DNA from: Chitinophagaceae bacterium
GTDB taxonomy: Bacteria > Bacteroidota > Bacteroidia > Chitinophagales > Chitinophagaceae
Assembly: GCA_019638595.1 (NCBI GenBank)
Contig: JAHBTJ010000001.1
Span: forward strand, 430,366-494,365
Length of the DNA stretch: 64,000 nt
Direction: 5' to 3'
Shown here: positions 47,341 through 62,081 of the stretch, piece after piece
Layout: each line of letters opens with the position of its first letter
Numbering within the stretch: position 1 is the stretch's first letter
Program-made: the position numbers and the translations under genes
Notes under the pieces: generated by a model
Told to the model about the DNA's origin: nothing
Databases searched by the model: none
The model's input: only the letters and a program-made list of their open reading frames with translations

Positions 47341-47406
47341 ATGACATAAATCATATTCCTTAATAAGCACAATCAGCTTCCCTGTATATAGGGAATTTTA
47401 ACTTGG
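47341..47406 (+). promoter_or_regulatory. ric promoter: two CRP/FNR-type sites 22 bp apart plus -7 box
   Basis: Distal site ATGACATAAATCAT (47341-47354, core TGA-N6-TCA). Proximal site ATAAGCACAATCAG (47363-47376), with one good half (ATCAG). Centres are 22 bp apart. A TAACTTGG box at 47399-47406 ends 36.5 bp after the proximal centre, predicting a start near 47411, 12 bases before the ATG. Confidence 0.6.
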
Positions 47407-47422
47407 GACTCTAATTTTACTT

Positions 47423-48190
47423 ATGCCAACAGGAGTTATTATAAAACCGGGCGATTTTGTATCGGATATTGTGAACAGGTATTACAGCACCGCCGATGTA
47501 TTCCGGAAGCATGGAATTGATTATTGCTGCGGCGCCAAATGGAGCATTGAAGACACCTGCCTCTCAAAGCAACTGGATACCGGCATGGTCGTATCGCAAC
47601 TCAACCAATCGGTAAATGCCGGCCAATTCTCTTTGCTGAACTGCGCTGAGTGGAATACTGATTTCCTGGTTGAATTCATCCAGAATATATATCACACTTA
47701 TTACAAAGAAGCGCTGCCCGATATACAATCGCTTACTAAAAGCTTTACAGACAAGCACCAAAAAAAATTTGCCCGGCTGATGGAGCTGAATGTATTATTA
47801 ACTGAATTAGCTGCCATCATACAAAGCGGTATCGCCATTAAAGAAAATACGCTTTTTCCATATATCAGGAGAATGGCACACGCGTACGAGGGAAAAGAAT
47901 CATATGCAGGCTTAATGGTACGAACACTTCAAAAACCACTCAACAGCCTCATTCCTGCCGGACATGAAAAAGTAACTTCACTAATAACAGCCATAAAAAC
48001 GCTTACAGACAACTATACACCCCCCCCGCTTACATGCACCTCTCACAAAATAACTTTTTATAAGCTGCAGCAGCTATGTAATAACCTGGAACAACAGCTA
48101 TACGTCGAGTATGAAGTGCTTTATCCCAAAGCATTGCTGATGGAAAAAGAAGTACTGCTGCCCGCCACAGGCAAAGAGGATGATATATAG
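47423..48190 (+). CDS. ric: iron-sulfur cluster repair di-iron protein (Ric/YtfE/ScdA)
   Basis: 255 residues. The N-terminal DUF542 (ScdA_N) domain has FVSDIVNRYYSTADVFRKHG then IDYCCGAKWSIEDTC with the conserved CC pair. A hemerythrin-like four-helix domain follows, carrying histidine/glutamate ligands of the di-iron site in FIQNIYHTYYKEALPDIQSL, FTDKHQKKFARLMELNVLLT and later helices (ENTLFPYIRRM, EYEVLYPKALLMEKEV). It repairs Fe-S clusters damaged by nitric oxide or oxidants. Its promoter has tandem CRP/FNR-type sites, consistent with low-oxygen or NO control. Probably co-transcribed with the histidine kinase 21 bases downstream. Confidence 0.9.
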   Translation: MPTGVIIKPGDFVSDIVNRYYSTADVFRKHGIDYCCGAKWSIEDTCLSKQLDTGMVVSQLNQSVNAGQFSLLNCAEWNTDFLVEFIQNIYHTYYKEALPDIQSLTKSFTDKHQKKFARLMELNVLLTELAAIIQSGIAIKENTLFPYIRRMAHAYEGKESYAGLMVRTLQKPLNSLIPAGHEKVTSLITAIKTLTDNYTPPPLTCTSHKITFYKLQQLCNNLEQQLYVEYEVLYPKALLMEKEVLLPATGKEDDI

Positions 48191-48211
48191 CCTTATTTGT
48201 TAATTTAGCTG

Positions 48212-49768
48212 ATGATTAGTTTGAACAGCAGGCAGGCAACCTTCCTGGCTATCGTAATTTTTACCGCAACTGTTATATTCGGCTATTATTTTCCGGGAAA
48301 GCCTATCATAAGCAGCGGCATGTTGGTGGCAATTTTCCTCACCATATTCATCCGCCATACCTATTCTACCATAATAGCAGGGGTATTGAGCATTACCATC
48401 GCCACCATATACCCCGTTATTCACCAGTACCAGACCGGTTTTTTTACAGGGGTAACGGAAAATCTTTTTATCATCATCCTTATTTTTTTTTCCACGCTGC
48501 TGGCCTGGTATGTAAAATCGCTGTTGCTTCACCTGCAGTTCGACCGCACCCATATGACCTCTCTCTTTGAAAACGCCACAGAAGGGATCGTACTTACCAA
48601 TGGAAAAGGAAACATTATACTTGCCAACCCTTCGGCCGAACAAATTTTTGGCTATTCCAGCGATGAGCTGATAGGAAAAGAGATAGAGATCCTGATCCCG
48701 AAAAAAGTAAAGCCTCATCATACGGAACTACGGTCGGGGTATTACAAAGCACCCTCCAACAGAACAATGGGATCGGGGAGAGACCTGTATGCCGTTAAAA
48801 AGGACGGAACGGAATTTCCGGTAGAAGTGAGCCTGAGCTTTTACAAACAAAACGATGAGCAATACGTAATAGCCTTTGTTGTAGACATTACAACGCGTAA
48901 GCAAACCGAACATAACATACAGCAAAAGCAGGCGGAGCTGGAAGCCATTACCTCGGAAATACAGCTTTTAAATACGCAACTGGAAGCCAAGGTGGAAGAA
49001 AGAACAGCCATCCTGAAAGAAGCGCTTGAAAAGCTGGAACAGTCACAAAAAGAGCTTCATGACGCGCTGAATAAAGAAAAGGAGCTCAACGAGCTGAAAA
49101 GCCGGTTTGTTTCGATGGCATCGCATGAATTCAGAACGCCGCTCAGCACTATTCTTTCTTCCGCCACACTGGTAAGCAAATACCCGCTCAGCGAAGACAA
49201 TGAGAAAAGAATGAAGCACATTACGAGGATAAAAGACGCGGTGGATCACATGAACGAATTGCTGGAAGATTTTCTTTCGCTGGGAAAGCTGGAGGAAAAC
49301 CGGGTTGGATTTTTACCAGGCGCCTTTTCCCCTTTCGACTTTATTGAAGAAACGGTGGATGAAATGAAAACACAGGCAAAACCGGGGCAGGAAATATCTT
49401 TTTCCTTTGATGGGGAAAATGAATTTGTTACCGACAAACGGCTGCTAAAAAATACGCTTATCAACCTGCTGTCCAACGCTCTTAAATTTTCGGGAGAAAA
49501 TAAGCCGGTGCATCTTTCGGCTTCCCACCACAATAACAAACTCACCATCACCATACGGGATAGCGGTATCGGTATCCCTCCTGAAGACATCCCTTATTTA
49601 TTTGATACTTTTTTCCGAAGCAGGAATGCTTCCAACATACAGGGAACCGGGCTGGGACTTCCCATCATCAAAAGATACCTGAACCTGCTGCAGGGAAGCA
49701 TAGATGTAGAAAGCACCCTGGGGAAAGGTACTACTTTTACTATTGTATTACCCCGGATAACCGCATAA
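48212..49768 (+). CDS. FixL-like PAS sensor histidine kinase
   Basis: 518 residues. Three or four TM segments in the first 105 residues, then a PAS domain (about 115-230: SLFENATEGIVLTNGKGNII, AEQIFGYSSDELIGKEIEIL), a coiled coil (235-295), HisKA with H305 in MASHEFRTPLSTIL, and HATPase with N (LINLLSNALKFS), DSGIGIPPED and GTGLGLPIIKRYL. The PAS has His169/170 and MGSGRD with Arg190 at positions like the haem-proximal His and regulatory Arg of FixL, but these residues occur in many PAS domains, so haem binding is only possible. No response regulator is adjacent; the receiver-CRP protein at 58802 is a candidate partner. Confidence 0.85.
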   Translation: MISLNSRQATFLAIVIFTATVIFGYYFPGKPIISSGMLVAIFLTIFIRHTYSTIIAGVLSITIATIYPVIHQYQTGFFTGVTENLFIIILIFFSTLLAWYVKSLLLHLQFDRTHMTSLFENATEGIVLTNGKGNIILANPSAEQIFGYSSDELIGKEIEILIPKKVKPHHTELRSGYYKAPSNRTMGSGRDLYAVKKDGTEFPVEVSLSFYKQNDEQYVIAFVVDITTRKQTEHNIQQKQAELEAITSEIQLLNTQLEAKVEERTAILKEALEKLEQSQKELHDALNKEKELNELKSRFVSMASHEFRTPLSTILSSATLVSKYPLSEDNEKRMKHITRIKDAVDHMNELLEDFLSLGKLEENRVGFLPGAFSPFDFIEETVDEMKTQAKPGQEISFSFDGENEFVTDKRLLKNTLINLLSNALKFSGENKPVHLSASHHNNKLTITIRDSGIGIPPEDIPYLFDTFFRSRNASNIQGTGLGLPIIKRYLNLLQGSIDVESTLGKGTTFTIVLPRITA

Positions 49769-49779
49769 AGCGTAACAGG

Positions 49780-50487
49780 TCAGGGGTGGCAGATAACCGC
49801 GTCGCCATTGCTATGAGGTAGCACCGGGCTTATAAAAGGTATGCCCAGGTTTAAGCCCCGTAAAATAAGCAGTATACCAACGATCGCCATACCATAGGGC
49901 ATTGCCTTTTTGAACAGGCTGCGCAGGGTAATATTCATCGACAGCCCGGCATACACTGCTATGACCATCGCAGGGGCAGTACCCAATCCGAACATCATCA
50001 TAAATAATACAGTATCAAAAGTGCCCGGCATGGTAAGCGCCGTAGCCAGGGCCATATATACCATACCACAGGGCAGCAACCCGTTTAACATGCCCAACCA
50101 AAGATAAGAGACTATACCTCCCGGGGAACGCAGTATACGCGCGATACGTTGCTGTATTGCTTTATACAGGCGGTTAATAAATGGAATTTGTATAGCCGGT
50201 CTGAAATAGCTGAAAATTAAAAACACGAGGATGATGATACCCATTGTTACAGATATCCACTGCTGCACTCCCGCCAGGTATAGCTGCCGGCCGGCCAGTC
50301 CAAATAAAAAGCCAATAGCCGCGTAAGATGCTACCCTGCCAATATTGTATAGCAAAATGCCTGCGTTGCGTTTAAAAGCAGTAAGATGATGTACAGGCAA
50401 AGCCAGGGCTAAAGGCCCGCACATTCCCACACAGTGCAGGCTGCTTAAAAATCCCAACAATAATCCTCCGGCCGCCAGTTGCCACAT
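49780..50487 (-). CDS. TauE/SafE-type membrane protein of the cbb3 oxidase cluster
   Basis: 235 residues, six TM segments: AAGGLLLGFLSSLHCVGMCG at the N-terminus carries the HCxxMCG motif typical of the CcoH/urease-accessory-like DUF2/sulfite exporter family members found in oxidase loci, then GILLYNIGRVASYAAIGFLF and WLGMLNGLLPCGMVYMALAT. The paired HCxxMCG and PCGMVY cysteines suggest copper handling. In Bacteroidota this gene is the usual end of ccoNOPGH operons and likely helps copper delivery to the oxidase. Last of the cluster; nine bases after fixH. Confidence 0.82.
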   Translation of the reverse strand: MWQLAAGGLLLGFLSSLHCVGMCGPLALALPVHHLTAFKRNAGILLYNIGRVASYAAIGFLFGLAGRQLYLAGVQQWISVTMGIIILVFLIFSYFRPAIQIPFINRLYKAIQQRIARILRSPGGIVSYLWLGMLNGLLPCGMVYMALATALTMPGTFDTVLFMMMFGLGTAPAMVIAVYAGLSMNITLRSLFKKAMPYGMAIVGILLILRGLNLGIPFISPVLPHSNGDAVICHP

Positions 50488-50496
50488 ATCAGTTAA

Positions 50497-50931
50497 TTAA
50501 AGGGTAAGTTGTTCTTCTTTAAAATAAGACAGGTCATTACAGGTCCATTCTATCTTAACCGTATACCTGCCCGGTTTAAGCTCTGCTACATCCAGCACCT
50601 GCATACCATCATTATTAGTTTGTAATGGCATTTTTTTATCCAGCCCCGCGTCGTAGGCGCAATAGAACCAAAGGCTTCCTTTGATCTCCTGGTCTTTCAT
50701 TTCCCCGGGAAATTGTACCACAATTTTATCCTCCTGCCGGCTGATGATTGCCAGGTCTCCCAATTCGCTCGTCCTCGCCTTTGCATCAATTACTTCCTGG
50801 TAACGCAATTCATTTTTATAGTAGTCCTTTTCCACCAGTTGAAAATCGGTGGTAATGCAACGATAAAGCATATACCCCATCCATGCAACAAAAACCGCAA
50901 TAACGATGGTTAATTTATGTCCCCAGTTCAT
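50497..50931 (-). CDS. fixH: FixH/CcoH family oxidase assembly protein
   Basis: 144 residues with an N-terminal TM anchor (KLTIVIAVFVAWMGYMLYRC) and the FixH periplasmic beta-sandwich: DFQLVEKDYYKNELRYQEVI, VQFPGEMKDQEIKGSLWFYC, and PGRYTVKIEWTCNDLSYFKE. It is required for maturation or stability of cbb3 oxidase in other bacteria. The gene lies between ccoG and the TauE-like gene, with repeat copy D inserted between it and ccoG. Confidence 0.85.
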   Translation of the reverse strand: MNWGHKLTIVIAVFVAWMGYMLYRCITTDFQLVEKDYYKNELRYQEVIDAKARTSELGDLAIISRQEDKIVVQFPGEMKDQEIKGSLWFYCAYDAGLDKKMPLQTNNDGMQVLDVAELKPGRYTVKIEWTCNDLSYFKEEQLTL

Positions 50932-50937
50932 ATAGAA

Positions 50938-51073
50938 TGATTTGAAATTTGAGATTTATGGTTTATAGTTTGTTGTTTATGGTTGGGCTATGGCTATGAG
51001 CGATCAGCGATCAGCTTTCAGCAAATCCTATAACCTGTAACCTGAAACTTGTAACCTGCGACCTGCAACCTGC
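50938..51073. repeat. modular intergenic word repeat, copy D, inside the cbb3 cluster
   Basis: Fills the 145-bp gap between ccoG and fixH: TTTGAAATTTGAGATTTATG, TTTATAGTTTGTTGTTTATG, AGCGATCAGCGATCAGC (50999-51015) running into TTTCAGCAAA, then CCTGTAACCTGAAACTTG, TAACCTGCGACCTGCAACCT. AGCGATCAGCTTTCAGCAA here and AGCGATCAGCCTTCAGCAA in copy A differ at one base. Confidence 0.75.
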
Positions 51074-51076
51074 TTC

Positions 51077-52525
51077 CTACCTCCCCGCCGGCCCCATAAA
51101 ATTTGTAGTAAGGGTTGTGATCTTTTTGTCATTCTCATCGTACAACCCTACGCGTAATTTTGTTTTGCGCTCACTGATAACATTACGGGGCAGCACTATA
51201 AAGAATGATCCCTTTCCCTGCCCTTCCCGCTGCACTTCTATATTATGCCCTTCCGCTTCTATGATCCTGCCCGCTACATCCTCCAGCTTCAGCGAAAGCG
51301 AGATATCATGTACAGACTTATTGATCACTTTAATATTATATAAATTAGATACACTGTCCTCACCCCGCTCCTGGTACAGCATTCCGCCTGCCCTTAAGAT
51401 AGTGCCATCCACTTCCTTTCTGGATAATAACAGCGTTGCCAGTATGCCGGTCAGCAATACCAACATCACTGTATAAAACTTCATCCTGCCGGTATATTCC
51501 AGCTTCTTGCCTTCTGCAATTCCATTTTCCGACGCGTACCGTATCAGACCCCGCTCCCTCCCTACCCCATCCATCATTTTATTACAGGCATCAATACACG
51601 AAGTGCAACCCACACATTCCATTTGAGTACCGTTACGTATATCTATGCCGGTAGGACAAACCTTGACACACTGAAAACAATCTATGCAATCACCGAGGGG
51701 CGGAAAAGCTGCCGCCGCCCCGGCTTTTTGTTTTTTGAATTTTCCACGCGGCTCACCCCGTTTATAGTCGTATGCCACAATCATTGAGTTCCTGTCAAGG
51801 AGCACGCCCTGTAATCTTCCGTAGGGACATACCACCGTGCAGGCCTGCTCCCTGAAATACGCATATACTCCATAAAAAACAGCCGCAAACAGGATGATGG
51901 AGATCAACCCGCCAATGTGCTGAGATGCCGGCTCTGTTACGATTAGCAACAACTCTTTCATGCCAATGATATATGCCAGGAAAAAGTTGGAAATGATAAA
52001 GGCAAGCAGGAAAAATACAATATGCTTGGAAGTCTTTTTTATGATTTTAGACCTGGACCAGGGAGCTTTATTCAGCAGCTTTTGAGCCGGCGCATCACCC
52101 TCAATCCAAAATTCAATTTTACGGAAAAGCATTTCCATAAAAATAGTTTGAGGACATACCCACCCGCAAAACAGCCTCCCGAAAGCAGCTGTGAACAGGA
52201 TGATAAACACGATCCCCGTGATCATCGTAATACCGAATATGAAAAAGTCCTGCGGCCAAAATACCTGCCCGAATAAAATAAATTTCGCTTCAGGAATATT
52301 AAACAGGAAAAGTGGCCTTCCTTTATACTGGATAAACGGCAGCAAAAAAAACAAGGCGAAAAAACCCCAACTCACCCAGGTTCTGATGTTAAACAGGCGC
52401 CCTTTTGTTTTGTGGGCGTAAACCCATTTGCGCTTGCCTTTTTCATCTACCGTCGCTATCCTGTCACGGAAGCTTTCGTCTACATAAGTAGCTGCCTGTT
52501 CTTTTATATTGTCCTCTTCTTTCAC
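51077..52525 (-). CDS. ccoG: cbb3 oxidase accessory protein CcoG (4Fe-4S, Cu-related)
   Basis: 482 residues, about six TM segments with a polyferredoxin part: FCGWVCPQTIF, CTVVCPYGRLQGV, and the cluster sites CIDCFQCVKVCPTGIDIRNG and CVGCTSCIDACNKMMDGVGR. A C-terminal immunoglobulin-like periplasmic domain follows (SVSNLYNIKVINKSVHDISL). CcoG is reported as a membrane cupric reductase/assembly factor for cbb3 oxidase. Sits seven bases after ccoP. Confidence 0.92.
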   Translation of the reverse strand: MKEEDNIKEQAATYVDESFRDRIATVDEKGKRKWVYAHKTKGRLFNIRTWVSWGFFALFFLLPFIQYKGRPLFLFNIPEAKFILFGQVFWPQDFFIFGITMITGIVFIILFTAAFGRLFCGWVCPQTIFMEMLFRKIEFWIEGDAPAQKLLNKAPWSRSKIIKKTSKHIVFFLLAFIISNFFLAYIIGMKELLLIVTEPASQHIGGLISIILFAAVFYGVYAYFREQACTVVCPYGRLQGVLLDRNSMIVAYDYKRGEPRGKFKKQKAGAAAAFPPLGDCIDCFQCVKVCPTGIDIRNGTQMECVGCTSCIDACNKMMDGVGRERGLIRYASENGIAEGKKLEYTGRMKFYTVMLVLLTGILATLLLSRKEVDGTILRAGGMLYQERGEDSVSNLYNIKVINKSVHDISLSLKLEDVAGRIIEAEGHNIEVQREGQGKGSFFIVLPRNVISERKTKLRVGLYDENDKKITTLTTNFMGPAGR

Positions 52526-52531
52526 AGTACA

Positions 52532-53647
52532 CTAATTTTTGGTAGCAGCACCATCGCCTGCAGCAGCCGCATCTTCTTTATACAATTCTCCTTCCTGGGC
52601 TTTTGCGTCAGGAGGATTGGTACCATGCAAAGATTTTACATAACCGGTTATTTGTGCTATCTGCTTATTGGAATAGCTTGTTTGCCACTGTGGCATGGCA
52701 TTAATGCCATATTTTATGGTTTTAAAAATACTTTTCACATCGCCGCCATGCACCCAGTAGTCATCAGTAAGATTTGGTCCTACCAGGCCTCCGCCGTCTG
52801 CTTTATGGCAGGCAACACAGGCCGTGTTAAAGATAGCCTTTCCGGCGGCCAAATCGCCTGCATCGGTAAGCAACGTTACCGTATTTTCGTCCACCGATTC
52901 TCCTTTGGCTTCCAGGTATGCCTTCACCTTTTCATCGGCTTTTTTCATTGAAATTTCAAACTCCTCCTTGCTTAAAGGAGCACTATACGCCACATGATAA
53001 CGCCATAAATAAACAACACTAAAGATAATGGTTACATAAAAACCATACAACCACCACGGCGGCAGCCTGTTATCCAGCTCTCTTATTCCATCATATTCAT
53101 GTTCGAGCGCTATGGCAGACTCCTGCTCTATAGGCTTGAATTTGTTTAAACGCCCCCACCATGCAGCAAGGGATGAAGGTTTGGCAAAAGCAGGCTCAAA
53201 TACCGTTTCCTTATCTTTTTGTAAAAGGAATTTCATATTAATGAGCAGCACCAGTATGATCAGCATTTCAACAAACAAGATGGTGATCATGGAATAGAAC
53301 GCAAAAGCGCTCAGCCCGCCAATGGTGGCGGGGGCTTGCGTTGCGCCGCCGGCATCCTGGGCAAAAGTTGCCACGCTGCTGAAAAGCATTACCAGCAGCA
53401 TTGTTGCCGTAACACCCGTATGGCCCTTTTCTTCCTTTTCGTTTTTCATTTTTATTTCAGCTAACCCCAGCAACAATCTTCCTAACATCATAATTATTAT
53501 CAGGAGTATGATCATTAATGTTATAAGCGTAAGCGCCAACGGGTTATCAAGAGCGGAGGGTGCAGGAGGTTCTGCCGCAAAAACGCGGCTGCTGCCAACT
53601 GTCAGCAAAACAGTTAACATCAGTAACGGTTTCAACCTGCTTTTCAT
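52532..53647 (-). CDS. ccoP: cbb3-type oxidase cytochrome c subunit (CcoP)
   Basis: 371 residues from the ATG at 53647, which gives signal-anchor MKSRLKPLLMLTVLLTVGSS; a start 30 bases upstream is possible. Two more TM segments (LALTLITLMIILLIIIMMLG, FAFYSMITILFVEMLIILVL) precede the FixP N-terminal domain with DNRLPPWWLYGFYVTIIFSV and a single c-type haem site ACVACHKADGG with axial Met region NAMPQW. Proteobacterial CcoP has two CxxCH sites; here only one is seen, a form common in Bacteroidota. A hydrophobic Ala-Ala-Gly tail ends the protein. It passes electrons to the CcoNO catalytic subunit. Confidence 0.9.
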   Translation of the reverse strand: MKSRLKPLLMLTVLLTVGSSRVFAAEPPAPSALDNPLALTLITLMIILLIIIMMLGRLLLGLAEIKMKNEKEEKGHTGVTATMLLVMLFSSVATFAQDAGGATQAPATIGGLSAFAFYSMITILFVEMLIILVLLINMKFLLQKDKETVFEPAFAKPSSLAAWWGRLNKFKPIEQESAIALEHEYDGIRELDNRLPPWWLYGFYVTIIFSVVYLWRYHVAYSAPLSKEEFEISMKKADEKVKAYLEAKGESVDENTVTLLTDAGDLAAGKAIFNTACVACHKADGGGLVGPNLTDDYWVHGGDVKSIFKTIKYGINAMPQWQTSYSNKQIAQITGYVKSLHGTNPPDAKAQEGELYKEDAAAAGDGAATKN

Positions 53648-53687
53648 AAAAACTTTCCGGATAATAGCTGATAGCATAACAGTTATT

Positions 53688-53858
53688 TTATTGATTCTGA
53701 TTGTCTAATGGAATACGACTGATTTCTTCTATTTTCTTTTTATCTGACTTCCATACCCAGGCAAGAACAGCTAAAAAGAAGAGGAAAAAAATACTGAGCG
53801 ATGCAAGTCCGTAAATGTCCACACCGCTTATTTTTTCCAGGTAATTGATAAACTTCAT
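53688..53858 (-). CDS. ccoQ: cbb3 oxidase small subunit CcoQ-like
   Basis: 56-residue single-TM protein: polar start MKFINYLEKISGVDIYGLAS, a helix LSIFFLFFLAVLAWVWKSDK, and a charged cytosolic tail KKKIEEISRIPLDNQNQ. Its place between ccoNO and ccoP and the WxWKxDKK helix-end pattern fit CcoQ/FixQ, which stabilises the oxidase complex. Below the size many gene callers accept. The name rests on position and topology, since CcoQ sequences are weakly conserved. Confidence 0.8.
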   Translation of the reverse strand: MKFINYLEKISGVDIYGLASLSIFFLFFLAVLAWVWKSDKKKIEEISRIPLDNQNQ

Positions 53859-53878
53859 AACAATATTTTTAAAATAGT

Positions 53879-56011
53879 TTATTTAAGCGCTGTTTGCTCT
53901 TCCTTTTTTTCCTGCTTAATATCTTTTCCTATGCGTTGCAGGTAAGCGATCAATGCGATGATCTCCCTGTCTGCAGGCGTTTCGATCTTGTCCTTTTTCA
54001 AGCTGGCGGCTATGGATTCCGACTGGGCCTTTATATCCGCGTTCGCCTTCTTGTCATATCCTTCGGGATAAGGAACTCCCAGCTTTTGCATAGCTCTTAT
54101 TTTAGCGGGGGTAGACGAAGTATCTAATTTAGTATCAAGCAGCCACGAGTAGACCGGCATTACGGATCCGGGAGACATTGACGCGGGATCGTCCATATGA
54201 TTATAGTGCCAGCTATCTGAATATTTTCCTCCTATACGCGCCAGGTCGGGACCGGTGCGTTTACTACCCCACTGGAACGGATGATCATATACGAACTCAC
54301 CGGCTTTTGAATATTCACCGTAACGTACCACCTCATCCCGGAAGGGGCGGATCATTTGTGAATGGCAAGTATAGCATCCTTCCCGGATATATATATCCCT
54401 GCCCTGTAATTCGAGCGGTGTATAAGGCTTTACGCTGGTAATGGTGGGTACGTTCGATTTTACCAGGAAGGTGGGAACAAACTCCAGTATACCGCCAATG
54501 GCAACTACTATTAAGCTCACCACCAACATGGCAACAGGACGGCGTTCTATCCTCCTGTGCCAGTGCTCCCTGCCGTGATGTACTGCCTTTTGCAAAGGAG
54601 CCGCCTCCGCTTCTTCGTTGGCAATAAATTTTCCTTTGGCAATGGTTTTATACAGGTTGAACACCATCAGGATGGCTCCTATGAGGTATATTAAACCGCC
54701 CAGGCTGCGGGTAACATACATGGGAATAATATTGGTTACAGTTTCCAGGAACTGGAATTTCAACTGCCCTTCGGGAGTAAATGTTTTCCACATAAGGCTT
54801 TGGGAAAAACCCGCCCAATACAACGGTACAGCGTACAGTATGATACCAATAGTACCCAGCCAGAAGTGGTTATTGGCAAGTTTTCTCGAATACAATGGAG
54901 TGCCCCACATTTTCGGAACAAGATAATACAGGATGGCAAAAGCCATAAAGCCGTTCCAGCCAAGTCCGCCTATATGAACGTGGGCGATGATCCAGTCGCT
55001 GAAATGCGCGATGGCGCTTACGTTCTTCAGGCTCAGCAACGGACCTTCCAGTGTGGCCATACCATAGCAGGTGATAGCCACCACCATGAATTTCAGGATA
55101 GGATCTTCCCGCACTTTATCCCATACGCCACGCAGCGTAAACAACCCGTTAAGCATACCTCCCCAGGATGGAAAGATCAGCATCAGCGAAAACACGGTAC
55201 CCAGCGACTGGGCCCAATCAGGTAACGAGGTATACAACAGGTGATGCGGCCCTGCCCAGATGTAGAGAAATATGAGCGACCAGAAGTGTATGATGGAAAG
55301 CCTGTAGGAATATACAGGACGGTTGGCTGCTTTAGGCAGAAAGTAATACATCAATCCCAGGATGGGAGTAGTAAGAAAGAATGCTACCGCGTTGTGCCCG
55401 TACCACCATTGCACCAGGGCATCCTGCACGCCTGCATACCAGCTATAGCTTTTCATGAACGAAACCGGAATTTCGAACGAGTTAACAATGTGCAGCATGG
55501 CTATAGTAACCCAGGTAGCAATGTAGAACCATATGGCAACATACAGGTGGCGCTCCCTTCTTTTAAGGATGGTGCCAAACATATTGATACCGAATACCAC
55601 CCAAATGAGGGTAATGGCAATATCAATCGGCCACTCAAGCTCCGCATATTCTTTACCGGTAGTATAGCCCATCAGCAGGGTAATGGCCGCCGATGCTATT
55701 ATCAGTTGCCAACCCCAGAAATGTATCCAGCTCAGCTTATCGCTGAACATCCTGGTTTTGCAAAGCCGTTGCAGCGAGTAGTATACTCCTGTAAAAATAG
55801 AGTTGCCTACAAAAGCAAAAATGATGGCATTGGTATGCAAAGGCCGTATACGGCCAAAAGTGGTAGGAGCTAATCCAAGGCTTGTAGAGGGCGCGTATAT
55901 TTGTATAGCTGCCCACAAGCCGGCCAGCATGCCCACCACCGCAAAAATAACTGTAGCATAACCGAAGGCTTTTACAATTTTATTGTCGTAATAAAATTTT
56001 TCCATCTGCAT
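53879..56011 (-). CDS. ccoNO: cbb3 oxidase fused subunits I and II (CcoN-CcoO)
   Basis: 710 residues from the ATG giving MQMEKFYYDNKIVKAFGYAT; longer readings would run into ccoS, so this start is preferred. CcoN part (about 1-470): twelve or more TM helices with haem/CuB histidines in QWWYGHNAVAFFLTTPILGL, WAGPHHLLYTSLPDW and DWIIAHVHIGGLGWNGFMAF. CcoO part (after about 490): a TM anchor and the c-haem site EGCYTCHSQMIRPFRDEVVR with the later Met of SMSPGSVMPVYSW. It is the catalytic unit of a high-affinity terminal oxidase. Fusion of the two subunits is typical for Bacteroidota. Translated just after ccoS. Confidence 0.95.
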   Translation of the reverse strand: MQMEKFYYDNKIVKAFGYATVIFAVVGMLAGLWAAIQIYAPSTSLGLAPTTFGRIRPLHTNAIIFAFVGNSIFTGVYYSLQRLCKTRMFSDKLSWIHFWGWQLIIASAAITLLMGYTTGKEYAELEWPIDIAITLIWVVFGINMFGTILKRRERHLYVAIWFYIATWVTIAMLHIVNSFEIPVSFMKSYSWYAGVQDALVQWWYGHNAVAFFLTTPILGLMYYFLPKAANRPVYSYRLSIIHFWSLIFLYIWAGPHHLLYTSLPDWAQSLGTVFSLMLIFPSWGGMLNGLFTLRGVWDKVREDPILKFMVVAITCYGMATLEGPLLSLKNVSAIAHFSDWIIAHVHIGGLGWNGFMAFAILYYLVPKMWGTPLYSRKLANNHFWLGTIGIILYAVPLYWAGFSQSLMWKTFTPEGQLKFQFLETVTNIIPMYVTRSLGGLIYLIGAILMVFNLYKTIAKGKFIANEEAEAAPLQKAVHHGREHWHRRIERRPVAMLVVSLIVVAIGGILEFVPTFLVKSNVPTITSVKPYTPLELQGRDIYIREGCYTCHSQMIRPFRDEVVRYGEYSKAGEFVYDHPFQWGSKRTGPDLARIGGKYSDSWHYNHMDDPASMSPGSVMPVYSWLLDTKLDTSSTPAKIRAMQKLGVPYPEGYDKKANADIKAQSESIAASLKKDKIETPADREIIALIAYLQRIGKDIKQEKKEEQTALK

Positions 56012-56033
56012 AATCCGTGAATGTTTATTGGGT

Positions 56034-56195
56034 TTATTGTTTTGGTTTGAGGTCAGTATGATCATCGAATAAAATGCGCGAAGGAGGGGCATAATCATCG
56101 TTGAACTGCCCGCTTTTAACGCTCCATAAAAAAGCAACCAGGAATATCCCTGCAACGAAAATGCTGGCCAGCAACAGAATAATTATTACACTCAT
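56034..56195 (-). CDS. ccoS: cbb3 oxidase maturation protein CcoS
   Basis: 53 residues: MSVIIILLLASIFVAGIFLV then AFLWSVKSGQFNDDYAPPSR, ILFDDHTDLKPKQ. The single TM plus WSVKSGQFDD... PxxRIL pattern is diagnostic of CcoS, needed to insert haem and copper into the oxidase. First gene of the operon, 18 bases after the predicted transcription start and 22 bases before ccoNO. Confidence 0.93.
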   Translation of the reverse strand: MSVIIILLLASIFVAGIFLVAFLWSVKSGQFNDDYAPPSRILFDDHTDLKPKQ

Positions 56196-56217
56196 ATTAT
56201 TTTATTGGAATGATTTG

Positions 56218-56283
56218 TAAAAGTACCCGCGGTTAAAACCGTTATTTATAAGCGCTATCAATTGGCGGTATGATCTTTGTCAT
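56218..56283 (-). promoter_or_regulatory. cbb3 operon promoter: two CRP/FNR-type sites 22 bp apart plus -7 box
   Basis: Distal ATGATCTTTGTCAT (56270-56283, part of TATGA-N6-TCATA). Proximal on the minus strand TTGATAGCGCTTAT (56248-56261), with one perfect half TTGAT. Centres 22 bp apart. A minus-strand TACTTTTA box (56218-56225) ends 36.5 bp from the proximal centre. Confidence 0.6.
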
Positions 56284-56290
56284 ACAATTG

Positions 56291-58675
56291 TCAGGATACC
56301 ATTTTCAGCCTCCCCGCAGAAATATGGCTTGATAAATAAGTAAGAAGAATAATGCTTAAGGAACTGGCAGGCATCAGCACAGCAGCTATAAGCGGCGAAA
56401 GCATGCCCTGCACCGCGAAGAACAGCCCTGTAATATTATATAATACAGACATTACAAAGCTCGCGATCACTATTTTCCGGTTATTACGGCACAGTTGCAG
56501 GAAAGCCGGCAGGCGCTCCAGTTGGGCCGCCTCAATGATTCCGTCGCTGGCAGGCGTAAAATTATTCGACTGATCACTTACCGCCAGTCCCACACTGCTT
56601 TCCAGCAAAGCGGCTCCGTCATTCAGCCCGTCGCCAACCATCATCACTTTATCGCCCTTTTCCTCCAGTTGTTTTACGTAATTCAGCTTGTCGGCAGGCA
56701 TTTGTTTAAAAAACAGCGCAGCCTTACCGTTTGTCATACGCCAAAGGTTGGCCTTTTCCGCCGCCGTATCGCCCGATATTACGGAAACCCTGCGCTTGCT
56801 GATCAGCTTCTTTAAAAGCCTGGGAATGAACGTACGGTACTGGTTGGTAAAATAAAAGCAGCCGGTCTTTTTGTTTTCAATGTATAGGAACACCGTCGTT
56901 GTTTTGTTGGATGCCCGCTCTTCAGCGCTCCCTGCATCCAGCCTGATCCAGGTATCATTTACATACCCCTCTATTCCCTTCCCGGGAATTTCCTTAAAAC
57001 CGTCCGCCTGTATATCCCCGGCTTCTCCAAGGTATTGCACAATGCTCCTGCTAAGGGGATGGTTGGAGCAGGATGCCAGCGCGGCTATGCTCCGCATGGT
57101 TTTTCCCGACAGCGGCTCCCCTTCGTAAGAAACATGCTGCTGCCCGGCCGAGGTAAGGGTGCCTGTTTTATCCAGCACTATATGATCCACGGCCGCCATG
57201 TCTTCTATTACCTGCGCGCTGCGCAGGTACAGCCCGTTACGGCCCAGTATACGTAAAATATGCCCGTTGGTAAAGCTATTGGCCAGCAGCAGCGCACATG
57301 GACAGGCTACAATAAAAACGGCGGTTACCGAGCTCCATACTTTTGAGGGATCGTTGAGCTGCCAGTATATGCCGGCAGCCAGGGCTATCGTGAAAACGAT
57401 GACAGTAAAATACCTGCTCACCGTATGTACGAACGACCGGTTCTTTTCTTCTTCCGCCGCATGTTCCCTGTTCCATAAACTGGTAAGATAGCTCTGGTTC
57501 ACCTCTTTCATAACCTTTACCTCCATATTGCCCCCGGTTTGCCGGCCACCCGCGTATATCATTTCACCCGGCGCTTTTGCTACAGGCAACGATTCGCCCG
57601 TAACAAAGCTGTAATCTATTAAAGCGTTCCCTTTGATTATCCATCCGTCAACAGGTACCAGCTCTTCATTATGAATAAGTATAGTGTCGTGTATCTTTAA
57701 CTCAGGCAATAAGCACGATCTTTGTTTACCTTCTTCAATAACAGTTACGGCAATGGGGAAATACGAGCGGTAATCTCTTTCAAACGAAAGCTGGCGGTAA
57801 GTCCTGTTTTGCAGTACCCGCCCTACCAGCATAAAAAATACAATGCCGCTCATCGAATCAAAATAGCCGCCGCCTGTTCCGGAAACCACTTCCCAAACAC
57901 TTCTTACAAAAGTGATGATGACCGCCAGGGCTATAGGCGCATCAATATTTAAAAACCGGTGCTTCAGGCTTTTCCACGACGATTCGTAAAACGGCCATGC
58001 CGCGTAAAAAAATACGGGGAGCGAAAGCAGCAGGTTCGCCCACCTGAACACGCTTCTGATCAGCTCCTCCCCCGCGTCTACCCCCAGATATTCGGGAAAG
58101 CTCATGAGCATAATGTTGCTGAAACAAAAGCCGGCCACCCCCAGGTGGTATATCAGGCTTTGATCACGGCGCTTTTGGGGGGATGAAATATCCTTTAAGC
58201 TGATATATGGCTCATATCCCACACCGGCCAGCAGAGAGGCCAGTTGCTGTAAAGAAATGACCGAATGATCGAAAAAGATCTCTACTGTTTTTTCAGGGAA
58301 ATTTACCCTTGATGAAATGACGCCTTTATTGATCCTGTGCAGGTTTTCCAGCAGGTAAAGGCAGGAGCTGCAATGCATTTGCGGCAGGGAAAAAATAACA
58401 TGTGTTTGTTCATCGTTCCTGAAAGAGATAAGCCTGGAAGCAATATTTTCATCTGCCAGAAAAGCGAACTTATCCTCCCTTATGGAAATACGCTGTGTGA
58501 TGCCGGGATTGGCGTTAAGGTCGTAATAGTTACAAAGCCCGCTTTCATTGATAATTTCATATACCATCCGGCAGCCTTCACAACAAAAAGTCTTATTATT
58601 GAAGTATGTTTTTCCGGCAGAACAGGGCTCGCCGCAATGAGCGCACTGTATCTTATCCGCCACTTTTATTGCCAT
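56291..58675 (-). CDS. ccoI: heavy-metal P-type ATPase of oxidase clusters (FixI/CcoI, copper)
   Basis: 794 residues. N-terminal zinc-ribbon-like Cys region typical of FixI (CAHCGEPCSAGKTYFNNKTF, FCCEGCRMVYEI), then an HMA domain with MHCSSCLYLLENL, TM segments, the copper-site VACPCALLLANSF (CPC), the phosphorylation motif VLDKTGTLTSAG, HPLSRSIVQYLGEAG and MVGDGLNDGAALLESSVGLA. It exports Cu+ to the periplasmic side for CuB assembly in cbb3 oxidase. It lies upstream of ccoS on the same strand with the regulated promoter in between, so ccoI is not under that promoter. Confidence 0.92.
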   Translation of the reverse strand: MAIKVADKIQCAHCGEPCSAGKTYFNNKTFCCEGCRMVYEIINESGLCNYYDLNANPGITQRISIREDKFAFLADENIASRLISFRNDEQTHVIFSLPQMHCSSCLYLLENLHRINKGVISSRVNFPEKTVEIFFDHSVISLQQLASLLAGVGYEPYISLKDISSPQKRRDQSLIYHLGVAGFCFSNIMLMSFPEYLGVDAGEELIRSVFRWANLLLSLPVFFYAAWPFYESSWKSLKHRFLNIDAPIALAVIITFVRSVWEVVSGTGGGYFDSMSGIVFFMLVGRVLQNRTYRQLSFERDYRSYFPIAVTVIEEGKQRSCLLPELKIHDTILIHNEELVPVDGWIIKGNALIDYSFVTGESLPVAKAPGEMIYAGGRQTGGNMEVKVMKEVNQSYLTSLWNREHAAEEEKNRSFVHTVSRYFTVIVFTIALAAGIYWQLNDPSKVWSSVTAVFIVACPCALLLANSFTNGHILRILGRNGLYLRSAQVIEDMAAVDHIVLDKTGTLTSAGQQHVSYEGEPLSGKTMRSIAALASCSNHPLSRSIVQYLGEAGDIQADGFKEIPGKGIEGYVNDTWIRLDAGSAEERASNKTTTVFLYIENKKTGCFYFTNQYRTFIPRLLKKLISKRRVSVISGDTAAEKANLWRMTNGKAALFFKQMPADKLNYVKQLEEKGDKVMMVGDGLNDGAALLESSVGLAVSDQSNNFTPASDGIIEAAQLERLPAFLQLCRNNRKIVIASFVMSVLYNITGLFFAVQGMLSPLIAAVLMPASSLSIILLTYLSSHISAGRLKMVS

Positions 58676-58711
58676 AATCGGCTAAAGTAAGGCGGCCATC
58701 GCTGCTGATCC

Positions 58712-58776
58712 ATGAGTGACATCAACAGAAAAACTGATTAAAATCAGCACTGGCTGCACTTCTGTTTTTACCTTTG
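58712..58776 (+). promoter_or_regulatory. receiver-CRP gene promoter: two full TGA-N6-TCA sites 22 bp apart plus -7 box
   Basis: Distal ATGAGTGACATCAA (58712-58725). Proximal CTGATTAAAATCAG (58734-58747), a 14-bp palindrome repeated exactly at 59869-59882. Centres 22 bp apart. -7 box TACCTTTG (58769-58776) ends 35.5 bp after the proximal centre. The predicted start near 58782 puts the sites at about -41.5 and -63.5. It suggests autoregulation. Confidence 0.65.
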
Positions 58777-58801
58777 ACCATTACAGTTATATTTATATTA
58801 A

Positions 58802-59872
58802 ATGAGCCTTATGTTACAGCGTACCATACTTATTATAGACGATAACAACGAATTAAGGGAAAATACAGCCGAACTGCTGTCGCTGGGGGGCTATAAAACC
58901 ATTACTGCCGAAAATGGCAAAAAGGGGGTATCCATGATACTGAATGAAAAGCCAGACCTGGTAGTATGTGATATTATGATGCCGGAACTGGATGGATACG
59001 GGGTTTTACACCTGGTGCGCAAAAATCCTGAAATGGAGAACATTCCTTTTATTTTTCTTACCGCCAAAACCGAAAGAAGCGACTTCAGGAAAGGGATGGA
59101 AATGGGCGCCGACGACTATCTTACCAAACCTTTTGAAGAACATGAGCTGATGAACGCTATAGAAAGCCGGTTGAAAAAACATGCAGTGCTCAACAGGAAA
59201 TACGCCGCTTCGGTAAAGGGATTGAGCGACCTGGCAACCGATCTGCGTAATAATGGCATGCTGTCGTTAGACATGAGCCAATACGCCACCGAATCGTACC
59301 AGAAGAAACAAACTATTCATGCAGAAGGCAAACGCCCCCGCTACCTCTACTATCTTGTAAGCGGCAAGGTGAAAGGTATAAGACTGCATGAAGACGGAAA
59401 GGAATATATAACCGACCTCTTCAGCCCGGGCGACTTTATAGGATACATGGCCCTGCTGGAAGGAAGGAACTACGACGAATCGGCCGTGGTGCTGGAAGAC
59501 GCCGAGGTACTGCAAATTCCCGCAAAAGACTTTATGGAGATGATTTACGCGGATATGGCTATTGCCGCACAGTTCATAAAGATCATTGCACAGAATATTA
59601 AAGACAAGGAAGCAAGGCTGCTGAGCCTGGCCTACAGTTCGCTGCGGAAACGGGTAGCGAAAGCGCTGGTGGAGATCCACGATAAGTTCAACCCCGGTAA
59701 AACTGCCGCCCCGCTCGAAATTTCAAGGGAAGACATGGCTCATTATATAGGCACTGCTACCGAATCATTAATACGCACCATCAGCGATTTTAAATCGGAA
59801 AAGCTGATTGCGATCAAAGAAGGGAAAATTATCATTACCGACCTTGAAAGGCTGAAAAATCTTTTATACTGA
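58802..59872 (+). CDS. receiver-CRP/FNR fusion transcription regulator
   Basis: 356 residues. Residues 5-125 are a response-regulator receiver: D13/D14, phosphoacceptor D57 in DLVVCDIMMPELDG, T87 in IFLTAKTE and K109 in DYLTKPFEE. A short link leads to a cyclic-nucleotide-binding-like beta-roll (about 155-260: YLVSGKVKGIRLHEDGKEYI, FSPGDFIGYMALLEGRNYDE), the dimer helix, and an HTH_Crp domain (305-350) with recognition helix TATESLIRTISDFKSE. No Fe-S cysteines as in FNR. The fusion combines the FixJ and FixK roles in one protein. Phosphorylation by a histidine kinase, possibly the one at 48212, would tune binding to TGA-N6-TCA sites. Confidence 0.88.
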   Translation: MSLMLQRTILIIDDNNELRENTAELLSLGGYKTITAENGKKGVSMILNEKPDLVVCDIMMPELDGYGVLHLVRKNPEMENIPFIFLTAKTERSDFRKGMEMGADDYLTKPFEEHELMNAIESRLKKHAVLNRKYAASVKGLSDLATDLRNNGMLSLDMSQYATESYQKKQTIHAEGKRPRYLYYLVSGKVKGIRLHEDGKEYITDLFSPGDFIGYMALLEGRNYDESAVVLEDAEVLQIPAKDFMEMIYADMAIAAQFIKIIAQNIKDKEARLLSLAYSSLRKRVAKALVEIHDKFNPGKTAAPLEISREDMAHYIGTATESLIRTISDFKSEKLIAIKEGKIIITDLERLKNLLY

Positions 59873-59933
59873 TTAAAATCAGACAATAGATTGACTCGGT
59901 TAACCTTACATGCCATTAAAGGGCATTAGTTTG
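59869..59933 (+). promoter_or_regulatory. SDR-CoA-transferase promoter: tandem CRP/FNR-type sites and -7 box
   Basis: Distal CTGATTAAAATCAG (59869-59882) overlaps the regulator gene's stop codon. Proximal TTGACTCGGTTAAC (59891-59904), one good half. Centres 22 bp apart. A near -7 box TTAGTTTG (59926-59933) ends 35.5 bp after the proximal centre. Confidence 0.55.
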
Positions 59934-59955
59934 CACCGCAACAAAAGCAGGAATT

Positions 59956-60705
59956 ATGGAAAGTATTAAAAACAAAGCAGCGCTGGTTACAGGCGCCGGT
60001 TCAGGCATTGGCAGAGCTACCGCTGAACTGTATGCGCAGTACGGAGCCAAAGTAGTAGTGAGTGATGTACATGAAGTAAACGGCAATGAAACAGTTGCTC
60101 TTATAAAAGCCAAAGGTGGGGAAGCTATATTTATTAAGGCAGACGTAAGCGATGCGGCGGCATGCGAAGCGCTGGTGGCGGGTACGGTAAAACAATATGG
60201 AAGTATTGATATAGCCTTTAACAACGCGGGCATAGGCGGAGAAGCCAATTTAATTGCCGACATGAGCGTTGAAGGATGGAACAAAGTAATTGCAGTGAAC
60301 CTGAACAGCGTTTTTTACTGTATGAAATACGAATTACAGGAAATGCTTAAACAAGGTAAGGGAGCTATTGTAAATATGTCTTCCATACTCGGGCAGGTTG
60401 GCTTTGCTACCGCGGCAGGTTATGTGGCGGCCAAACACGGAGTGGTGGGCTTAACTCAAAACGCGGCTATAGAGTATGCCGCGAAAGGCATCCGTGTAAA
60501 TGCCGTTGGGCCCGCTTTTATCAATACTCCTTTATTAGACCATATGGATGCGGCTACCAAACAAATGCTTGTTTCTTTGCATCCTGCCGGGCGGTTGGGA
60601 GAAGCAGGTGAAGTAGCGGAACTGGTGATATGGCTAAGCTCGGATAAAGCATCGTTTGTGAATGGCAGTTACTATGCCGTAGACGGAGGTTATCTTTCAA
60701 AATAA
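59956..60705 (+). CDS. SDR-family NAD(P)-dependent oxidoreductase
   Basis: 249 residues, classical short-chain dehydrogenase: cofactor motif TGAGSGIGRATAELYAQYGA, a likely NAD-preferring acidic end of strand 2 (VVVSDVHEVN), NNAG (IAFNNAGIGGE), catalytic Ser in MSSILGQVGF and YxxxK as YVAAKHGV, and the PG-type lid IRVNAVGPAFINTPL. Ending AVDGGYLSK is usual. The substrate is unknown; 3-oxoacyl or small alcohol/ketone substrates are possible. First gene of a two-gene operon with the CoA-transferase, controlled by tandem CRP/FNR-like sites. Confidence 0.88.
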   Translation: MESIKNKAALVTGAGSGIGRATAELYAQYGAKVVVSDVHEVNGNETVALIKAKGGEAIFIKADVSDAAACEALVAGTVKQYGSIDIAFNNAGIGGEANLIADMSVEGWNKVIAVNLNSVFYCMKYELQEMLKQGKGAIVNMSSILGQVGFATAAGYVAAKHGVVGLTQNAAIEYAAKGIRVNAVGPAFINTPLLDHMDAATKQMLVSLHPAGRLGEAGEVAELVIWLSSDKASFVNGSYYAVDGGYLSK

Positions 60706-60716
60706 ATTTTTACCCT

Positions 60717-61997
60717 GTGAACAACCATTATCTTTCTGCCGGGGAAGCAGTGAAAGTTATAAAACCGGGAGACCGTGTATTCCTGCATGGCAGCGCTGCT
60801 ACGCCGGTGCACCTGGTAAAAGCCCTGCAAAACAGGCATGCCGAACTGCGCGATGTGGAACTGGTAAGCATTACCAACCTCGGCCCTCTTGATTTTAATA
60901 ATCCTGATTACAGGAAAAGCTTTTTCTTTAACTCCCTGTTCGTATCGGCCAATACCCGCGCGGTTGCCAACAGCGAGGCGGGAGATTATGTACCTGTCTT
61001 CCTGAGCCAGATACCACAATTGTTCAGGAGGTCTATACTGCCTATTGATGTAGCGCTGATACAGGTATCGCCGCCCGATAAGCATGGCTATTGTTCCCTG
61101 GGAACATCGGTAGATATAGCTGTGGCCGCCGTAGAAACAGCCGGGCATGTAATAGCGCAGGTGAACCCGGCCATGCCGCGCACCCTGGGCGATGGTATTG
61201 TGCATATAAACAAAATACACGCGCTGGTAGAGCACCAGGCAGAGCTGCCCGAAATGAATTATTCATCCGGCGCTACAGAGATCAGCGAAAAGATAGGATA
61301 CAATGTGGCTTCGCTTATTGAAGATGGCGCTACCTTACAAATGGGTATCGGTACTATTCCCGACCAGGTATTGAAAAACCTCGGCAACCACAAAAACCTG
61401 GGACTGCACACCGAAATGTTTTCCGACGGCATTATTCCCCTGCTTGAAAAAGGAGTGATAAATAACAACTGCAAAAAGTTAAACCCCGGGCTTTCGGTTA
61501 CCAGCTTCCTGCTGGGCACCCGCAGGCTGTATGATTTTGTAGACAACAATCCGTCTATCCTGGTAATGGATATTGAATATGTGAACGACACCAGCGTTAT
61601 CAGGCAAAATGCAAAAGCTACCGCTATTAACAGCGCCATTGAAATTGATCTTACAGGGCAGGTGTGCGCAGATTCCATAGGCACTTATCAATATTCGGGA
61701 ATTGGCGGGCAAATGGACTTTATGCGCGGCGCCTCCCTGTCGGAAGGCGGTAAACCTATTATCGCCATGCCTTCCGTTACATCCAAAGGGATATCGCGCA
61801 TTGTTCCTTTTTTAAAAGAAGGCGCCGGCGTGGTTACTACCCGCGGGCATATACACTGGGTGGTAACAGAATATGGCATTGTTAACCTGTTTGGAAAAAA
61901 TCTCCGGCAAAGAGCTAAAGCGCTTATCAGCATCGCGCATCCCGATCACCGCGAAGCGCTTGAAAAAGCCATGCGCGACAGGTTTCATACAAGCTGA
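60717..61997 (+). CDS. acetyl-CoA hydrolase/CoA-transferase family (4-hydroxybutyrate CoA-transferase-like)
   Basis: 426 residues. Starts at GTG (no ATG is available before NNHYLSAGEA), 11 bases after the SDR stop. Family features: GDRVFLHGSAATPVHLVKAL, DVALIQVSPPDKHGYCSLGT, the catalytic zone TLQMGIGTIPDQVLKNLGNH with LGLHTEMFSDGIIPLLEKG, and the C-terminal FSGIGGQMDFMRGA-like segment (here YSGIGGQMDFMRGA) with TTRGHIHWVVTEYGIVNLFG. Enzymes of this group move CoA between acetate and acyl groups such as 4-hydroxybutyrate or succinate, or hydrolyse acetyl-CoA. Substrate not certain. With the SDR it suggests an anaerobic or low-oxygen carboxylate or alcohol pathway. Confidence 0.88.
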   Translation: MNNHYLSAGEAVKVIKPGDRVFLHGSAATPVHLVKALQNRHAELRDVELVSITNLGPLDFNNPDYRKSFFFNSLFVSANTRAVANSEAGDYVPVFLSQIPQLFRRSILPIDVALIQVSPPDKHGYCSLGTSVDIAVAAVETAGHVIAQVNPAMPRTLGDGIVHINKIHALVEHQAELPEMNYSSGATEISEKIGYNVASLIEDGATLQMGIGTIPDQVLKNLGNHKNLGLHTEMFSDGIIPLLEKGVINNNCKKLNPGLSVTSFLLGTRRLYDFVDNNPSILVMDIEYVNDTSVIRQNAKATAINSAIEIDLTGQVCADSIGTYQYSGIGGQMDFMRGASLSEGGKPIIAMPSVTSKGISRIVPFLKEGAGVVTTRGHIHWVVTEYGIVNLFGKNLRQRAKALISIAHPDHREALEKAMRDRFHTS

Positions 61998-62011
61998 TAC
62001 TTTTTCAGCGC

Positions 62012-62077
62012 TTGATATTGTTCAGCAAGTATGTTGACAGTGATCATAGTAATTCATCATACTCAATTATAATTTTG
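62012..62077 (+). promoter_or_regulatory. PNPOx-gene promoter: two full CRP/FNR-type sites 22 bp apart plus -7 box
   Basis: Distal TTGATATTGTTCAG (62012-62025), proximal TTGACAGTGATCAT (62034-62047), both TGA-N6-TCA, centres 22 bp apart. -7 box TAATTTTG (62070-62077) ends 36.5 bp from the proximal centre and only four bases before the ATG, predicting a leaderless mRNA with sites at about -41.5 and -63.5. Confidence 0.65.
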
Positions 62078-62081
62078 GATC

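Follow-up and report, generated by a model that had tools for sequence, protein, structure and literature searches.

Low-oxygen regulation in aerobic Bacteroidota is, to our knowledge, little described compared with that in Proteobacteria. At class II promoters of Escherichia coli, CRP or FNR occupies a site near -41.5 and the upstream core element is missing, and FixJ is a receiver fused to a LuxR-type output. In rhizobia, hFixL-FxkR-FixK and FnrN form two sensor routes onto the same operons, as set out in PMC7888657. For HcpR2, the available part of PMC1274295 predicts a regulon of hcp alone in most Bacteroides and describes no 22-bp double site. Among the matches listed for open-licence PMC titles and abstract openings, none dealt, for Bacteroidota, with double sites at a fixed 22 bp or with a regulon of receiver-CRP. 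Here we analyse a stretch of 64,000 nucleotides (the window) from Chitinophagaceae bacterium, assembly GCA_019638595.1, contig JAHBTJ010000001.1, positions 430,366-494,365 of the forward strand, in which five promoters of respiration and redox genes each carry two CRP/FNR-type sites with centres 22 bp apart. This paired-site layout stands before low-oxygen respiration genes in many Bacteroidota, much more widely than in this genome and its family, and the pairs are probably operators of the receiver-CRP protein encoded among them, with FixL-like kinase input and class II-type activation.

The locus resembles the rhizobial FixL-FixJ/FxkR-FixK and FnrN arrangement (fixNOQP/fixGHIS) in combining a FixL-like PAS kinase, a receiver and a candidate CRP/FNR-family activator of a cbb3 oxidase operon. 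It differs in that the receiver is fused directly to the CRP module, which would leave no separate FixK transcription step, and in its 22-bp double sites and Bacteroidota -7 box; unlike that of FixJ, the output domain is of CRP type. With HcpR2 the receiver-CRP protein shares the CRP/FNR family and the phylum. The promoters are like class II promoters in their proximal site near -41.5 and missing upstream core element, and unlike them in having, in most cases, a second, stronger site exactly 22 bp upstream. We read the promoter set as a variant of class II CRP/FNR control with a putative FixL-FixK-like input.

We call two TGA-N6-TCA sites with centres 22 bp apart an exact pair, and such a pair followed by 23 bases and TAnnTTTG a composite, which gives a promoter grammar of 65 bp. 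All ten sites of the window lie at the centres given in an earlier, sequence-only reading, every pair is spaced by 22 bp, and only the pairs at 58718.5/58740.5 and 62018.5/62040.5 consist of two full TGA-N6-TCA sites, again in agreement with that reading. It had also expected the 22-bp spacing to be enriched over its neighbours, and this was borne out in 80 loci from other genomes (1.45 Mb; found by a scan with the receiver-CRP protein, at most 10 kb on each flank), which contain 114 exact pairs at 22 bp, spread over 70 loci, against 0-5 at each other distance from 6 to 60 bp (0 at 20 bp, 1 at 21 bp), while eight control motifs at 22 bp gave 0-1 each. With at most one mismatch and the window included, 206 pairs were found at 22 bp and at most 30 at any other spacing from 14 to 40 bp; after removal of near-identical copies, again with the window, 82 remained at 22 bp and 0-4 at 18-21 and 23-27 bp. 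Open frames take up 93% of the sequence, yet of the 116 exact pairs counted with the window, 109 lie between genes. In a family sample of 60 whole genomes, where pairs were counted genome-wide, there were 328 at 22 bp and 207 summed over 23, 24, 25, 26 and 27 bp (about 41 per spacing), a conservative control because it includes a coding-like motif recurring in several genomes; spacings below 22 bp were examined in the 80 loci only. The own genome (G000, 7.06 Mb) contains three exact pairs, two of them inside the window, and 16 pairs with at most one mismatch against 4 in a reversed control, five of the 16 lying within one 14.7-kb part of the window (expected 0.03, Poisson P 3e-10). Composites with up to three mismatches, counted on both strands, occur there at 18 places and at one in the control.

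As side observations, the highest count at any other spacing was at 24 bp (5 exact pairs, 4 non-redundant; L016-L095), and triple sites at 22-bp steps, that is, two overlapping exact pairs, occur at G150:C5:324937-324992 and G413:C6:776-831. The third exact pair of the own genome, L003:1501-1534 (G000:C5:106396-106429), has a box TACCTTTA at an offset near 30.5 bp and precedes a 200-amino-acid protein whose N-terminal CxxC motif resembles a metal-binding domain. It is the sole convincing case among the ten pairs checked of the eleven outside the window (the one on C50 was left out); the others were rejected as regulon members, and half of the ten are located within open frames.

The offset of the promoter box holds as well. 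In promoters with a gene on one side only, the distance from the proximal centre to the start of a TAnnTTTG-like box of at least 5/6 (matches to the six fixed letters) is exactly 29.5 bp in 44 of 52 promoters with an exact pair and in 40 of 52 with one mismatch; neighbouring offsets on either side have 1-3 boxes. This agrees with the proposed fixed geometry near -41.5 and -63.5, where -41.5 presumes a transcription start five bases after the box. When a pair was not required, 118 of 144 intergenic sites located 29.5 bp from a box still had a second site (at least 5/6) at 22 bp, whereas any other distance from 13 to 44 bp gave 0-4 of 144; from the distal side, a partner was found at 22 bp for 156 of 186 sites versus 0-6 at other distances. 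The second site is nearly obligatory. A profile of 124 promoters reads TGAtaAAAATCA at the distal site, which is stronger than the proximal TGAnnnnrTCAT, with the box TAnTTTTG and no TTG at the -33 place; these promoters had been picked for a box of at least 5/6 and no more than one mismatch in the pair, so that box and half-sites are partly selected, while the site interiors and the -33 place are not. Similarly, the mismatch of one-mismatch pairs falls in the proximal site 45 times and in the distal site 9 times. The promoters thus have the class II traits of a palindrome near -41.5 next to the core box and an absent upstream core element. Boxes of at least 4/6 at 29.5 bp are also present at 21 pairs with genes on both sides; the ccoI/receiver-CRP region of the window is two-sided only if an offset of 28.5 bp is allowed on the receiver-CRP side.

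The paired sites of the window and the genes around them are as follows.

47342..47375, + strand: putative ric-kinase operator pair, distal TGACATAAATCA (47342-47353), proximal TAAGCACAATCA (47364-47375)
47399..47406, + strand: ric -7 box TAACTTGG, 29.5 bp from the proximal centre
47423..48190, + strand: ric-type iron-sulfur repair protein (ScdA_N; FeS_repair_RIC 141.6 bits, under the cut-off of 204.7)
48212..49768, + strand: PAS histidine kinase, 21 bases 3' of ric; among solved structures its PAS is nearest FixL
51077..52525, - strand: ccoG
52532..56155, - strand: fused ccoNO and ccoP, cbb3 oxidase subunits, downstream of ccoS
56218..56225, - strand: cco -7 box TACTTTTA; ccoS start codon by eye at 56195
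56249..56282, - strand: putative cco operon operator pair, distal TGACAAAGATCA (56282-56271), proximal TGATAGCGCTTA (56260-56249)
56291..58675, - strand: ccoI-type heavy-metal P-type ATPase
58682..58689, - strand: -7 box TACTTTAG toward ccoI, 29.5 bp from 58718.5, in the conserved direction
58713..58746, no strand assigned: putative divergent ccoI/receiver-CRP operator pair, TGAGTGACATCA (58713-58724) and TGATTAAAATCA (58735-58746)
58769..58776, + strand: box TACCTTTG toward receiver-CRP, offset 28.5 bp, direction seldom conserved
58802..59872, + strand: receiver-CRP fusion, the proposed regulator (Response_reg, cNMP_binding, HTH_Crp_2)
59870..59903, + strand: putative SDR operator pair, distal TGATTAAAATCA, proximal TGACTCGGTTAA
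59927..59934, + strand: weak SDR -7 box TAGTTTGC
59956..61997, + strand: SDR (59956-60705) and acetyl-CoA hydrolase/transferase (60717-61997), likely one operon
62013..62046, + strand: putative PNPOx operator pair, distal TGATATTGTTCA, proximal TGACAGTGATCA
62070..62077, + strand: PNPOx -7 box TAATTTTG, composite match with 0 mismatches
62082..62555, + strand: pyridoxamine-phosphate-oxidase-like (PNPOx) protein (Pyridox_ox_2)

Against the composite, the ric and cco promoters have two mismatches each, ccoI one, SDR three and PNPOx none. The predicted starts of PNPOx (62070-62082) and ccoI (58675-58689) coincide with the listed start codon or lie at most two bases from it, which suggests that these messenger RNAs are leaderless; a predicted leader of 0 recurs 9 times in the tally that gave the non-redundant counts, in which start codons are mechanical and some predicted leaders negative. 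Separately, the PNPOx protein (62082-62555) weakly matches the nitroimidazole-reductase families NimABCDEF (39 bits, cut-off 260) and NimIJ (32 bits, cut-off 270).

To the genes behind the pairs we applied a tally that included the window and accepted pairs with at most one mismatch within 350 bp of the gene. Its outcome favours the earlier view that low-oxygen respiration genes are the targets and that the pairs are conserved at orthologues: a pair precedes ccoNO in 38 of 39 testable places (in the window, ccoS intervenes) and ccoI in 39 of 44, so that oxidase and metal pump form the core of the target set. The remaining genes follow with 15 of 34 testable loci for ric, 6 of 8 for PNPOx, 5 of 47 for the kinase and 2 of 7 for the acetyl-CoA hydrolase. 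In this tally ccoP, ccoG, ccoH and the transporter, all of which lie inside the window cluster, had no pair in front. The SDR gene, also named as a target, was testable in only two places, with a pair in one. Receiver-CRP has a pair in front in 33 of 80 cases, with a box of at least 4/6 toward it in 2. The sites at 58713-58746 had been assigned to the receiver-CRP gene; the pair itself is present, but by conserved box direction it is mainly the ccoI promoter. Of 35 pairs in this position, 25 have a 29.5-bp box (at least 5/6) directed away from receiver-CRP and 2 have one directed toward it, the other boxes being 3 each at 27.5, 28.5 and 30.5 bp toward it and 1 each at 28.5 and 30.5 bp away. 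Autoregulation as the main role of this pair is therefore rejected. With one representative scanned per cluster, the other families behind pairs in relatives are Hsp20, universal stress protein, cytochrome c, FixS/CcoS, Rrf2, beta-CASP hydrolase, flavodoxin, hemerythrin and a radical-SAM protein that we take to be HemN-like; one protein matched no family.

The pairs cluster around the receiver-CRP gene. In the 80 loci the density of exact pairs per Mb is 225 up to 1 kb from the gene, 114 between 1 and 2.5 kb, 98 between 2.5 and 5 kb, and 28 and 40 beyond, over a background of 1.5 per Mb in 47 family genomes with receiver-CRP, a different genome set from the loci. Across the family, these 47 genomes contain 316 exact pairs (mean 6.7) and the 13 genomes without receiver-CRP contain 12 (mean 0.9); among genomes at least 90% complete the means are 6.9 (44 with) versus 1.0 (10 without; P 1.9e-5). 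In a phylum sample of 395 genomes, 161 carry one or more composites (two mismatches allowed), and single matches mean little because chance yields about 0.2 per genome (control columns, 98 rows examined). Full-length receiver-CRP occurs in 56 of the 395, and among the 98 genomes of the same family, order and class the mean number of composites is 6.7 with it (56) and 2.0 without (42). The same direction is seen in the families f3 (9.9 versus 1.0), f4 (4.0, one genome, versus 0.9), f1 (11.8 versus 6.5) and f8 (11.7 versus 4.8). In the same-genus genome G417, five pairs, each with a box of at least 4/6 on one side, lie within 9.3 kb around a second kinase-receiver-CRP gene pair.

The protein itself carries the response-regulator signature of acidic pair, phospho-aspartate, threonine or serine, and lysine: D14, D57 and K109 are present in 77/77 homologues, position 13 is D in 58 and E in 19, and position 87 is T in 75 and S in 2. 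Its recognition helix retains E321 and R325 in 77/77, and its CRP part lacks the FNR cysteine set: 66 of 77 homologues have no cysteine there, ten have one and a single homologue has two. In this genome, receiver-CRP is quite probably the binder.

The kinase points to the input. Its PAS domain has its best PDB matches in FixL (E 3e-17) and then DosP, and the NCBIfam FixL model gives 108 bits against a cut-off of 850. The position of the FixL haem histidine is H in 52 of 56 kinases, with 4 gapped, and that of FixL R220 is R in 51 of 56. Of 63 kinase homologues, 43 have receiver-CRP as their nearest other window gene, 17 the cco-end transporter and 2 ric, with none near in 1; in G091 the kinase overlaps receiver-CRP by 4 bp. 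Because it begins 21 bases 3' of ric, the window kinase is probably co-transcribed from the pair promoter.

From these patterns we infer a pathway in which the FixL-like PAS kinase would respond to a drop in oxygen, or to a related redox signal, by phosphorylating D57, the conserved aspartate of the receiver. Once activated, the CRP part would bind as two neighbouring dimers that share one face of the DNA, with centres near -41.5 and -63.5; the stronger distal site would anchor the first dimer, and the second would be helped onto the weaker proximal site. There it may substitute for the missing -33 element and contact RNA polymerase at the TAnnTTTG box, as class II CRP/FNR proteins do. Activation from -41.5/-63.5 is very likely. 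Cooperative binding, suggested by the near-obligatory pairing and the strong distal and weaker proximal sites, is fairly likely, and an oxygen or redox signal passing through the FixL-like kinase somewhat less so, though still favoured.

Several observations weigh against receiver-CRP and its kinase in these roles. The layout does not require receiver-CRP, as it is present in genomes without it. The family co-occurrence (one-sided P 1.5e-6) is uncorrected for phylogeny, and genomes without receiver-CRP are smaller on average. In family f5 the mean number of composites barely differs (2.1 in 22 genomes with receiver-CRP, 1.4 in 18 without), and five of these 22 (G053, G088, G130, G154, G355) have no composite; G403 and G415 carry receiver-CRP and no exact pair. 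The own genome encodes other CRP proteins, one of which (L152) has an FNR-like helix, GLRVETVIR, and is a candidate binder. A histidine at the haem position is also common in PAS domains without haem.

One alternative is that, throughout the phylum, the pairs serve chiefly an FNR-type (iron-sulfur) regulator, receiver-CRP being only a later or parallel reader. Nine sampled genomes without receiver-CRP (G150, G383, G271, G306, G273, G111, G076, G194, G017) hold 3-20 composites, and all nine encode a stand-alone CRP of about 235-255 amino acids that has an N-terminal C-x2-C motif, additional cysteines (in the best match per genome, 3-5 precede the start of the match) and a helix, GTATES/T.IR, very similar to that of receiver-CRP. 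Receiver-CRP itself is unlike a stand-alone FNR in its phospho-receiver and missing cysteine set. The best score of P0001 is to Fnr (89.5 bits, under the cut-off of 228). Exact pairs number 3-9 in six of the nine genomes and 2 in one; G076 and G194 have none, which speaks against this alternative. In three genomes (G150, G383, G273) the FNR-like gene is followed after 21-39 bp by an exact pair and then, beyond several hundred unannotated bases, by a ccoI homologue on the same strand. G271 and G306 have a pair about 2.3 kb from that gene; such linkage is absent in G111 and G017. The same respiration genes are preceded: G017 has a perfect pair with TAATTTTG directly before ccoI and before ccoNO, and G150 a composite before ccoNO. 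One of the three exact pairs of G017 is a self-palindrome and may be chance. The FNR-like protein alone is no predictor of the layout, because many genomes encoding it hold few composites: the class-level means are 2.2 with the FNR-like protein only (37 genomes), 7.5 with receiver-CRP only (32), 5.6 with both (24) and 0.6 with neither (5), and in the family, 39 genomes with receiver-CRP and no FNR-like match at 1e-50 hold 247 exact pairs, whereas 5 with the FNR-like protein only hold 6. Moreover, the nearest match in the own genome lacks the cysteines, and no other CRP listed there has a GTATES helix. We regard an FNR-type regulator as the primary reader phylum-wide as unlikely; in some genomes without receiver-CRP, the FNR-like protein probably reads the same pairs.

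Two candidates fell away here: the receiver domain as the cause of the 22-bp spacing, since genomes without receiver-CRP share it, and the close CRP of the own genome at C1:380144 as an FNR, which has no N-terminal cysteines and a different helix. This protein, L144:1639-2346 (G000:C1:380138-380845), has the helix GTARENVVR and neighbours what is presumably a SulP-like transporter.

A further alternative keeps the binder and denies cooperativity, with one site activating and the other limiting or tuning. Upstream FNR sites do limit or tune some E. coli promoters, yet near-obligatory pairing and a better-conserved distal site are unexpected of an optional tuner, and we consider this rather improbable. 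As to the signal, nitric oxide in place of oxygen would suit the ric-type repair protein behind 15 of 34 testable loci and the hemerythrin and Rrf2 proteins behind pairs of some relatives; conservation is highest, however, for the high-affinity oxidase and the metal pump, the kinase has a FixL-like PAS domain and the CRP part is mostly free of cysteine. Core targets and kinase thus favour oxygen, and nitric oxide is distinctly improbable. Finally, single TGA-N6-TCA sites are common (17 in the window), but chance or a coding or composition artefact is refuted by the spacing spectrum, the intergenic placement, the family-genome excess and the non-redundant counts, and its probability is close to nil.

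With receiver-CRP as the likely reader in this genome, the wider distribution raises the prospect, to which we lean slightly, that an ancient double-operator code of the Bacteroidota, written for two abutting CRP/FNR dimers and obligatory as a pair, outlived its regulator, being read before the same respiration genes by receiver-CRP in some lineages and by an iron-sulfur FNR-like protein elsewhere, with the sensing head exchanged. What results is a 65-bp promoter grammar that can be searched for, together with a probable regulator and kinase and a candidate regulon in dozens of the sampled genomes. The promoters offer natural, strictly spaced tandem CRP/FNR dimer sites suited to the study of cooperative class II activation on Bacteroidota RNA polymerase, and they may record an exchange of regulators beneath a conserved promoter code.

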